Shown here: positions 20,110 to 23,062 of the stretch, in pieces | Position numbering within the stretch: the first letter of the stretch is position 1 | Layout of the letters: each line of letters begins with the position of its first letter | Origin: Fusobacteria bacterium ZRK30 | Lineage (GTDB): Bacteria; Fusobacteriota; Fusobacteriia; Fusobacteriales; Fusobacteriaceae | Length of the DNA stretch: 64,000 bases | Assembly: GCA_024628785.1 (NCBI GenBank) | Contig: CP102405.1 | Coordinates: 186,001-250,000 of the forward strand | Reading direction: 5' to 3' | Made by a program: the position numbers and the translations under genes | The notes under the pieces: generated by a model | What the model was told of the DNA's origin: nothing | Databases searched by the model: none | What the model saw: only the letters and a program-made list of their open reading frames with translations

Positions 20110-20138
20110 TTTACATCTCCAAAAAACCATGTTATTAT
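20110..20138 (+). promoter_or_regulatory. Promoter of the metNIQ leader
   Basis: TTTACA (20110-20115), a 17-base spacer, TATTAT (20133-20138). Predicted start is near 20145, only about 23 bases before the leader ATG, leaving room for little more than a ribosome site, as in known leader-peptide attenuators. Confidence 0.7.
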
Positions 20139-20167
20139 CTAAAAAAATTATTAAGCGAGGAAGATCT

Positions 20168-20227
20168 ATGAGAAACTTTGAATTCAGACAATTAAATATA
20201 ATGATGATGCTTTGGAAGGGTTTGTAA
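20168..20227 (+). CDS. Putative methionine leader peptide of the metNIQ operon
   Basis: A 19-codon ORF reading MRNFEFRQLNIMMMLWKGL, with three consecutive ATG codons at 20201-20209. A GAGGAAG ribosome site at 20157-20163 is four bases upstream of its start codon. It follows a promoter by about 30 bases, and hairpins plus an intrinsic terminator lie between it and metN. This arrangement, with clustered codons for the amino acid handled by the operon, is what ribosome-mediated transcription attenuators show. The peptide itself would have no function; charged tRNA-Met would decide whether the ribosome stalls. Translation is not proven. In a 60-base ORF four Met codons could occur by chance in AT-rich DNA, but three in a row in front of a methionine transporter is unlikely. 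Confidence 0.6.
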   Translation: MRNFEFRQLNIMMMLWKGL

Positions 20228-20338
20228 CTTAAATTATTTAATTTAAGGGCAGACTCATTTTGTATTAAATTACATGAGTCTGCCAAACATCTTTCAAGCA
20301 ATTACGAAAGCCTGTGGTAGACGCCACAGGCTTTTTTT
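20228..20338 (+). promoter_or_regulatory. Attenuator structure of metNIQ (hairpins and intrinsic terminator)
   Basis: Three stems follow the leader stop codon. Stem A is CTTAAATT/AATTTAAG (20228-20247). Stem B is GGCAGACTCAT/ATGAGTCTGCC (20248-20258 with 20274-20284). The terminator is AAAGCCTGTGG/CCACAGGCTTT (20307-20317 with 20324-20334), with T-run to 20338. The 3' arm of stem B (GTCTGCC, 20278-20284) can instead pair with GGTAGAC (20316-20322) in the terminator arm and loop, with one G-U pair, giving a possible antiterminator. I saw no SAM-riboswitch or T-box consensus. Exact switching partners remain unresolved. Confidence 0.6.
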
Positions 20339-20395: not shown

Positions 20396-21409
20396 ATGAT
20401 TCAGATTAAAAATATCAGAAAAACTTACACCAGCAATAATATCAGTGTAGACGCACTAAAAAATATCAGCTTAGACATTGAAAAAGGAGATTTCTACGGA
20501 ATTATCGGTCTCAGTGGGGCTGGAAAATCGACTCTTATAAGACTTTTAAATAGATTAGAGGAACCAACCAGCGGAGAGATCATAGTGGATAAAAAAGATA
20601 TTCTAGGTTTTAATAATTTCGAACTTCAGGAATACAGGAAGAAAACAGGGATGATCTTTCAGCACTTTAACCTCATGAATTCTAGGAGTGTAGGAGGTAA
20701 TATAGCATTTGCACTGGAAGTAGCTAATTATCCCAAGGAAAAGATAAAACCCAGAATTATCGAACTCCTAAAATTAGTAGAATTAGAAGATAAGATCCAC
20801 AGCTATCCGGCCCAGTTATCCGGAGGACAAAAACAAAGAGTCGCTATCGCCAGAGCCCTGGCTAACCATCCAAAAGTTCTTCTTTCAGATGAAGCCACCA
20901 GTGCATTGGATCCAAAAACCACCAAGAATATCTTGAACTTATTAAAAGATATCCAAAAAAAATTAAATTTAACTATCATCCTCATAACCCATCAAATGGA
21001 AGTTATCAGAGATTCATGCAATAAAGTAGCAGTTTTAGATGGAGGGAATGTTGTAGAGGTAGGAGAGGTTACAAATATATTTTCCAATCCTCAGACTATA
21101 ATTACCCAGGAATTTATAAAACATCTGATTCCAGAGGAGGAGGAAGAAGTTGCATTCAGTCAGAAGATAGGCAGAAAGATAATAAAAATCTCCTACATAG
21201 GAGCAACTATTGATAAACCTATTATTTCTCAGCTCATTAGAAAGTTTGATATAGATATAAGTATCCTGGCTGGGAGTATCAATAAACTAGTTACTAACAG
21301 TGTCGGTTATCTTATATTGGAATTAAATGGTGAGATGGAAAAACAATTAAAAAGTATCAAATGGCTAAAACAAAATAAATTAGGAATTGAGGTGTTATAC
21401 AATGGATAA
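20396..21409 (+). CDS. metN: Methionine ABC transporter ATPase MetN
   Basis: 337 residues. Walker A is GLSGAGKSTLIRLLN, then the Q-loop MIFQHFNLM, signature LSGGQKQRVAIARAL and Walker B VLLSDEATSALDP. After about residue 265 comes a C-terminal ligand-sensing NIL domain (ISYIGATIDKPIISQLIRKF), which in E. coli MetN binds methionine and shuts down transport when the cell is replete. It drives uptake of methionine through MetI. It overlaps metI by eight bases. The ribosome site is AAAGGAG. Expression is probably set by the leader at 20168-20338. Confidence 0.95.
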   Translation: MIQIKNIRKTYTSNNISVDALKNISLDIEKGDFYGIIGLSGAGKSTLIRLLNRLEEPTSGEIIVDKKDILGFNNFELQEYRKKTGMIFQHFNLMNSRSVGGNIAFALEVANYPKEKIKPRIIELLKLVELEDKIHSYPAQLSGGQKQRVAIARALANHPKVLLSDEATSALDPKTTKNILNLLKDIQKKLNLTIILITHQMEVIRDSCNKVAVLDGGNVVEVGEVTNIFSNPQTIITQEFIKHLIPEEEEEVAFSQKIGRKIIKISYIGATIDKPIISQLIRKFDIDISILAGSINKLVTNSVGYLILELNGEMEKQLKSIKWLKQNKLGIEVLYNG

Positions 21410-22058
21410 AATTATAAGTCTGCTCTTACCAGCATTTAACGAAACTATATATATGGTGTTCTTTTCAGTGATCTTTTCCCTACTCATAGGTATCCCCATG
21501 GGAATATTATTATATGTCACAAAACCTGATAATATTCTGCCTATGAACAAATTAAATAAAGTTTTAGATCTTATCATAAACATAGGAAGATCCTTTCCAT
21601 TTATCATATTGATGATCTTAGTTTTACCTATATCACGATTTATTATCGGAACAACTATTGGCTCTACAGCCAGTATTGTACCCCTCTCTGTCTCAGCAGC
21701 TCCATTTGTTGCGAGAATCATAGAGGGAGCTGTCAGCGAAGTGGATAGAGGTATTATCGAAGCTTCTATCTCATTAGGGGCATCTAAATTTGAAATTATC
21801 ACCAAAGTATTGATCCCAGAGGCACTTCCAAGTCTTATTCACGGGATCACCCTGACTATAATTAATTTAATTGGATATTCTGCCATGGCAGGAGCCATTG
21901 GAGGAGGTGGTTTAGGAGATGTAGCAATCAGATATGGATACCAGAGGTTCCAGGTAGATATAATGATCATATCGGTTATCAGTATAATAATACTGGTTCA
22001 AATAGTTCAATTTACAGGAAATAGTATTGTCAGTAAGATCTCGGCCAGAAGAAAATAA
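21402..22058 (+). CDS. metI: Methionine ABC transporter permease MetI
   Basis: 218-residue inner-membrane permease with about five hydrophobic segments. IGRSFPFIILMILVLP, the EAAxxLG-like coupling loop (EASISLGASKFEIITKVLIPEALPS) and the GYSAMAGAIGGGGLGDVAIRYGYQRF end are family hallmarks. The ATG at 21402, eight bases inside metN and preceded by GAGGTG, is the true start; an earlier in-frame TTG lies within the ribosome site. Confidence 0.95.
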   Translation: MDKIISLLLPAFNETIYMVFFSVIFSLLIGIPMGILLYVTKPDNILPMNKLNKVLDLIINIGRSFPFIILMILVLPISRFIIGTTIGSTASIVPLSVSAAPFVARIIEGAVSEVDRGIIEASISLGASKFEIITKVLIPEALPSLIHGITLTIINLIGYSAMAGAIGGGGLGDVAIRYGYQRFQVDIMIISVISIIILVQIVQFTGNSIVSKISARRK

Positions 22059-22270: not shown

Positions 22271-23062
22271 ATGAAAAAAATTATATTATTATTAACGCTT
22301 ATTGCTATATTTATAGGTTGTGGAAAAAAAGAAGCAGCAGAAAACAATGTACTTAGAGTAGGAGCATCACCGTCTCCCCATGCTGAAATTTTAAACCTTA
22401 TAAAAGATGATCTGGCCAAAGATGGAGTCCAGCTTGAAACTGTTGAATTTACTGATTATGTTACTCCAAATCAAGCTCTAAATGACGGTGAGATAGATGC
22501 TAACTTTTTCCAGCATCTACCATATTTAGAATCGTTCTCAAAGGACAGAGGATTAGATCTAAGTTCTGTTGGAGGAGTATTTGTATCTCCCCTAAGCCTT
22601 TTTTCAGATAAGATAAAAGATATAAGTGAGCTAGAAGAGGGGGCTACTATTGCTATCCCAAATGATCCATCCAATGGTGGAAGAGCACTAATCATATTAG
22701 AAAAAACTGGCCTTATAAAATTAGATCCTAATGCCGGATTAAGAGCAACAGTACTGGATATCACAGAAAATCCTAAAAAATTAAACTTTAAAGAGCTCGA
22801 TGCAGCCCAGCTACCTAGATCTTTACAGGATGTAGATTGTGCATTTATCAATGGGAACTATGCTTTAGATGCTGGTATCGATCCTGTAAATGATGCTATA
22901 TTGAGAGAGGGGAAAGACTCACCTTACGCCAATATTGTAGCAGTTAAAACAGAAAATAAAGGAGATGAAAAAGTAGAAGCATTAATGAGAGCACTTCACA
23001 GCGAAAAAGTAAAAAACTTTATCACCGATAAATATAAGGGTATTATAGCACCAACATTTTAA
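22271..23062 (+). CDS. metQ: Methionine-binding lipoprotein MetQ
   Basis: 263-residue NlpA-family solute-binding protein. MKK, a hydrophobic run and the lipobox IGC at residues 15-17 predict lipid anchoring to the membrane. The mature part has VGASPSPHAEIL, the VEFTDYVTPNQALNDGEIDANFFQHLPYLE block that lines the methionine pocket, and AIPNDPSNGGRAL. It delivers methionine to MetNI. It is separated from metI by the MITE-like element; a good ribosome site (GGGAGG) is present. Confidence 0.95.
   Translation: MKKIILLLTLIAIFIGCGKKEAAENNVLRVGASPSPHAEILNLIKDDLAKDGVQLETVEFTDYVTPNQALNDGEIDANFFQHLPYLESFSKDRGLDLSSVGGVFVSPLSLFSDKIKDISELEEGATIAIPNDPSNGGRALIILEKTGLIKLDPNAGLRATVLDITENPKKLNFKELDAAQLPRSLQDVDCAFINGNYALDAGIDPVNDAILREGKDSPYANIVAVKTENKGDEKVEALMRALHSEKVKNFITDKYKGIIAPTF

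Follow-up and report, generated by a model that had tools for sequence, protein, structure and literature searches.

The metNIQ operon of the window (the whole 64,000-nucleotide stretch of DNA analysed here) encodes the ATPase, permease and substrate-binding lipoprotein of a methionine ABC transporter. It is preceded by a leader which includes a promoter, a short open reading frame (ORF) with a run of Met codons, two hairpins and an intrinsic terminator (Table 1). The metI and metQ products score above the cut-offs of their models; the best model for metN, TIGR02314 (MetN), gives 380 bits (E 1e-113) and does not reach its equivalog cut-off of 499.7.

Table 1. Features of the metN leader and the metNIQ operon (coordinates in the window)
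Feature	Coordinates	Strand	Basis
sigma-70-type promoter TTTACA-17-TATTAT, TG before -10	20110..20138	+	sequence and promoter scan
leader ribosome-binding site GAGGAAG	20157..20163	+	sequence
leader peptide ORF MRNFEFRQLNIMMMLWKGL*, 19 codons	20168..20227	+	sequence; orthologous and paralogous ORFs
regulatory Met codons ATG ATG ATG	20201..20209	+	alignments
segment B, GGGUUUGU; predicted partner of C during an upstream ribosome stall	20218..20225	+	pair counts, folding
AU-rich hairpin capping the B:C helix	20228..20247	+	folding; in 12/12 copies
segment C, 5′ arm of the large hairpin	20248..20258	+	C:D pair counts
segment D, 3′ arm of the large hairpin; also pairs with E through 20278-20285	20274..20285	+	C:D and D:E kept
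segment E, terminator 5′ arm and loop; 20315-20322 pairs with D (antiterminator)	20306..20322	+	pair counts
intrinsic terminator, stem 20306-20335 and T-run to 20338	20306..20338	+	scan, folding
metN, methionine ABC transporter ATPase	20396..21409	+	best NCBIfam model TIGR02314
metI, methionine ABC transporter permease	21402..22058	+	NF008049, above cut-off
metQ, MetQ/NlpA substrate-binding lipoprotein	22271..23062	+	TIGR00363, above cut-off

Much of this layout had been described in the original prediction, and as an observation it is confirmed. The promoter and the three consecutive ATG codons are present in the sequence, and the two hairpins are recovered by folding as the AU-rich hairpin and a large hairpin (20248-20284) with the arms GGCAGACTCAT and ATGAGTCTGCC (20248-20258/20274-20284). 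The 19-codon ORF with its ribosome-binding site is also found, its ends shifted by 1-2 bases, and both scan and folding identify the terminator with its T-run, whose end (20338) is separated from the metN start (20396) by 57 nt rather than the 58 first given. The suggested pairing between the large hairpin (3′ arm) and the terminator (5′ arm and loop) is real; it involves 8 bp (GUCUGCCA:UGGUAGAC, 20278-20285 with 20315-20322) and is referred to as D:E, segment F being the 3′ arm of the terminator. A further helix, B:C, had been overlooked: here GGGUUUGU (20218-20225) pairs with GCAGACUC (20249-20256) and encloses the AU hairpin. The leader has a folding energy of -60.7 kcal/mol (z = -7.2). The leader ORF is more than chance. 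It is the sole case, on both strands of the 64-kb window, of a short ORF preceded by a ribosome-binding site and carrying at least 3 Met in 7 codons, and the same criterion found 0 in 60 random 64-kb sequences.

Alignment of the metN upstream regions shows that ORF, Met codons, stems and terminator are retained as a set, with covariation in the stems. Among the window and four relatives whose metN is intact, the leader has a DNA identity of 90-99% (mean 94.8%), metN one of 83.5% (third codon positions, 63%) and the 200 bp upstream of the leader one of about 55%. The -35/-10 region is retained in relatives, and the GAGGAAG ribosome site is intact or almost so in all those of the metN type. Orthologues of the ORF occur in five genus relatives, all of which (5/5) have ATG at the position of the ATA found at 20198-20200 in the window; the relatives carry four Met codons and the window AUA AUG AUG AUG. 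The fifth relative, G056, also has a metN-type leader, retained upstream of a metN which is broken after its first codons (L208, G056:C71).

A covariance-model search with the leader identified two additional copies in the window genome, each with a paralogous ORF: one upstream of the methionyl-tRNA synthetase gene, metG (leader MKNIEFRQLNMMMMLWKGL), and one upstream of hom-metY-metF-metA-lysC (leader MVNSRIGQLNMLMMMLW). One element type is linked in this genome to three methionine transcription units, and from these linkages the metN leader appears to be one element of a methionine regulon. Relative G054 includes both metG-type and hom/metY-type copies, G055 and G057 the metY-metF type. A metG of the leader-linked type is present in only 2 of 8 genus genomes; that of the window genome is split by a frameshift (L202, G000:C2:1505373-1507047), where sequencing error is not distinguishable from mutation, and that of G054 is intact. 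The ORF is nowhere missing from a leader that retains the stems. In the hom/metY copies the leader stop codon lies earlier and the Met run is kept; segment B is also retained there although the ORF stops upstream of it.

Most other metN genes of the Fusobacteriaceae have a SAM-I riboswitch upstream. Cetobacterium-type genomes possess a second metN behind a different Met leader (MTTYNLISKTTMMNMMMPMGVGTKN), located in C. somerae on plasmid NZ_CP092522.1 (at the same coordinates as on contig 4 of genome G009). Their metY-metF operon carries the Met leader MFNKAMKTTMMNMMPLGVGTKN, and further copies lie upstream of genes for an aspartokinase and a peptide-binding protein. All indels in the ORF of the Cetobacterium metN leader are multiples of three. 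The covariance models of the genus and Cetobacterium leaders cross-match weakly (E about 1e-6 to 1e-3), for which reason a common origin of the two is possible. The metN leaders of a second family of the order (f4), by inference of the Leptotrichiaceae type, differ again (MINKVVTFKMNMMHM, MKKFAKNMMMDM, MNNYALTLMMMYMCR). No convincing Met leader was found at 80 metN loci from the genome collection.

Pairing was compared across 12 related copies in a hand alignment, used for the pair counts because MAFFT misplaced segment D between the metN and hom types. In these counts, whose cells are not independent events, standard pairs occupy 95/96 cells in B:C, 119/120 in C:D, 96/96 in D:E (with one bulged base, placed by hand, required in the hom copies) and 108/108 in E:F. 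Double changes occur in 3/10 pairs of C:D, 2/8 pairs of D:E and one pair of E:F. B:C has one-sided changes only and zero double changes, and its single mismatch among the copies is that of the G056 leader, whose metN is also broken. The most telling double change is found in the G057 metN copy, where a C-to-U change in D is matched by a G-to-A change in the terminator loop, a base which is paired only in D:E. C:D and D:E are mutually exclusive, yet both are retained with double changes.

The leader thus has the components of an attenuator: an ORF preceded by a ribosome-binding site, a run of cognate codons, a terminator before the first gene and a covarying, mutually exclusive antiterminator. 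We propose that it is a ribosome-mediated transcription attenuator which senses charged methionyl-tRNA, and give this reading a probability of about 0.87. With ample Met-tRNA, the ribosome would pass the Met codons, reach the stop codon and cover segment B; C would then pair with D, E would be left free and the terminator E:F would end transcription ahead of metNIQ. Under a shortage of Met-tRNA, the ribosome would stall on the AUG run and B would pair with C, with the AU hairpin as a cap. D, freed in this way, would pair with E (the terminator's 5′ arm and loop), the terminator would not form and metNIQ would be transcribed. Within this scheme we infer that the ORF is translated, that ribosomes stall on it, that transcripts terminate or read through in the cell, and in which direction the operon responds. 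Charged tRNA is indicated as the signal because the methionyl-tRNA synthetase gene is among the targets. Control through stalling at low Met-tRNA had been the original interpretation; conservation, covariation and the regulon support it, and three points are corrected, namely that the stall acts through a relay at a distance, that the metN copy itself switches weakly and that the leader belongs to a regulon. We considered and rejected the possibility that the stalled ribosome covers the large hairpin directly: the last Met codon lies 38 nt upstream of C (32 nt in Cetobacterium), and from such a distance a stall must act via the B:C relay.

The influence of ribosome position was modelled on the transcript as far as F, which was folded with each codon in turn occupied by a ribosome footprint. 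With E. coli trpL as a control, this protocol gave the antiterminator at the Trp codons and the following Arg codon, as known. For metG of G054, 6.3-7.8 of the 8 D:E pairs form while the ribosome occupies one of the first three Met codons (7.8 on the second), and about 0 at the last codon and the stop. The window genome's own metG gives 3.8 D:E pairs at the Met codons vs 0 later, and its own hom copy 6.1-9.0 when the ribosome is on the first, second or third of them, falling to 0.1 at the stop. Nearly all Cetobacterium leaders are predicted to switch likewise when the ribosome moves across their Met codons, except that the peptide-transporter copy stays on; in several, D:E partly re-forms once the stop codon itself is reached. 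In Cetobacterium and several hom/metY leaders, the untranslated leader is predicted to favour antitermination. Shuffling of the linker reached the observed effect in 1 of 100 cases for G054 metG, 4 for the own hom copy, 5 for G057 metY, 0 for Cetobacterium metN and 1 for Cetobacterium metY. At four f4 loci (L248, L250, L251 and L257), folding likewise indicates that the terminator arm becomes free depending on where the ribosome stands. At L252 ribosome position made no difference, and at L249, L253 and L254 the automatic choice of terminator looked wrong; the scans of these last four loci were left out as support. Selection of the antiterminator by ribosome position is therefore predicted to be clear in G054 metG, in hom/metY and in nearly all Cetobacterium leaders, and weak in the metN copy of the window. 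Counting against the attenuator are this weakness, the return of D:E at the stop and the antitermination expected of untranslated leaders, the lack of double changes in B:C with the mismatch in G056, and the narrow distribution of the metG target, frameshifted in the window genome.

In that copy the alternative helices are found by folding, and C:D is favoured by 2.6-5.1 kcal/mol with the ribosome on the Met codons in an equilibrium model, the energies of C:D and D:E being obtained with penalties on the competing helix. The footprint effect is near zero (5/100 in linker shuffling). If the upstream RNA is barred from pairing, D:E reaches 0.5-2.6 of 8 pairs with a +13 footprint and up to 4.9 of 8 with +17. 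The metN copy of the window is thus modelled as the weakest switch among the copies. It may be tighter and less inducible, or the kinetics of folding may play a part, B:C being first to form as the transcript grows. Termination is predicted for this copy in almost all states of the ribosome, as would be expected of a constitutive early terminator or a small RNA, unregulated and accompanied by an ORF arising by chance. Such an element would hardly have its alternative pairing conserved with double changes, be linked to three methionine transcription units and have sister copies which switch clearly when folded, and we regard this explanation as extremely unlikely.

A riboswitch binding methionine or SAM directly, to which the short ORF would be incidental, could account for a highly structured and strongly conserved leader upstream of methionine genes, the more so as SAM-I precedes most other metN genes of the family. 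The absence of a SAM riboswitch or T-box consensus had been noted in the original prediction, and the Rfam scan agrees: no family reaches its gathering score in the 64-kb window, and relaxed matches at the locus are weak. SAM-I (RF00162) has no match in the window at gathering score and, with E values up to 5 admitted, none at the locus, the T-box model (RF00230) has none at the metN leader, and two leader families remain below threshold at the locus (Thr_leader, 23.1 bits vs 55; Phe_leader, 21.1 vs 55). Furthermore, the fold consists of simple hairpins and includes no aptamer-like multi-helix core, the frame of the Cetobacterium metN ORF is preserved by its indels, and at least three leader sequence types share only the ribosome site, the Met-rich ORF and the switching helices. 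Direct ligand binding is very unlikely on these grounds. Elsewhere in the window genome, the only SAM-I element (L222, G000:C2:690677-690778) lies upstream of an ECF-type transporter operon, and a sub-threshold T-box match (74 bits vs 93) at G000:C1:493452-493626 is also found in four genus relatives.

The nascent peptide itself could also be the sensor, a Met-rich arrest peptide responding to free methionine or SAM much as TnaC does to tryptophan. The C-terminal MMMMLWKGL is indeed nearly invariant in the metN and metG copies, but the hom/metY copies end in LW, those of Cetobacterium in PMGVGTKN or PLGVGTKN, and Leptotrichiaceae-type leaders in HM, DM or YMCR, leaving only Met richness in common. 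Moreover, the codons following the Met run overlap segment B, so that their conservation is explained at the level of RNA. An arrest peptide is accordingly improbable, and attenuation governed by charged Met-tRNA is the interpretation retained here.

The distribution of leaders was examined on a metN tree of 92 proteins, of which 44 are preceded by SAM-I (assigned by motif), 21 by a Met leader and 27 by neither. The Met-leader label requires four changes of state, forced by well-supported branches, one of the four depending on L254, a long branch. On balance, we consider it probable that Met-tRNA attenuation has become linked to metN several times in the Fusobacteriota, with leaders of differing sequence but one logic, in the position that SAM-I occupies in sister lineages, and that in one genus it governs a whole regulon which includes the methionyl-tRNA synthetase. 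At one locus (L031, G024:C18), metN lacks the SAM-I motif of its close relatives and a transposase-like sequence ends upstream. In Cetobacterium-type genomes (L217-L221), an AGCS-type amino acid carrier gene lies downstream of a leader ORF containing five Tyr codons (MKQKIVFNTNAYYYYYLT) and of a terminator. From its sequence this is a possible Tyr leader attenuator; ribosome-position folding of these loci gave no clear switch.

The proposed relay resembles the his attenuator of enteric bacteria, in which hairpins A:B, C:D and E:F alternate with B:C and D:E. Common to both are a run of cognate codons, a relay of alternative hairpins acting at a distance and a terminator before the first gene. 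The leader described here differs in its amino acid (Met), phylum and sequence, in that B follows the regulatory codons and either spans the stop codon or lies beyond it, and in that its targets include a transporter and a tRNA synthetase. With E. coli trpL, folded by the same protocol, it shares an antiterminator which forms while the ribosome occupies the regulatory codons; the trp codons overlap segment 1, whereas those of the metN copy and of Cetobacterium metN lie 38 nt and 32 nt upstream of C. The SAM-I riboswitch (RF00162) of other Fusobacteriaceae has the same target gene and position before metN but senses SAM directly and is absent from the window metN locus.

Leader-peptide attenuation is described mainly from Proteobacteria and Actinobacteria, with some cases in Firmicutes (PMC2965389). 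The original prediction knew of no case in Fusobacteria, and we found no Met leader from Fusobacteriota in the literature within reach of our search, which most subscription journals lie beyond. Met leaders have already been predicted in other phyla. According to the portions of the reports available (PMC3847290, PMC11955535), Campylobacter has MetL, a peptide of 20 aa with 3 Met codons before metBA, for which a translation-initiation peak is reported, and CJsORF19 (MMYQMR) before metQ; MetL is reported there only in C. jejuni, C. coli and C. doylei. These are likewise Met-rich leader ORFs before methionine genes; phylum and sequence differ, and the same portions describe a short terminated RNA and not alternative helices. 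In S. lividans, a leader peptide with several Met, metL, is predicted before metNIQ (PMC8079986), but it is leaderless, 29 aa long, with spaced Met codons and no typical terminator (PMC8079986). Since Met leaders had been predicted in Campylobacter and Streptomyces, the kind is already known, and it is the regulon in Fusobacteriota which appears to be new. New as well are the phylum, the inclusion of a tRNA synthetase gene among the targets, and the backing by covariation and folding. That one sensing system may be exchanged for another at a given gene is already familiar (PMC2965389). If our reading is correct, the signal sensed for the same gene has switched from SAM to charged tRNA between sister genera, and the orthologous and paralogous attenuators, of graded strength, make such a replacement of switches directly testable.
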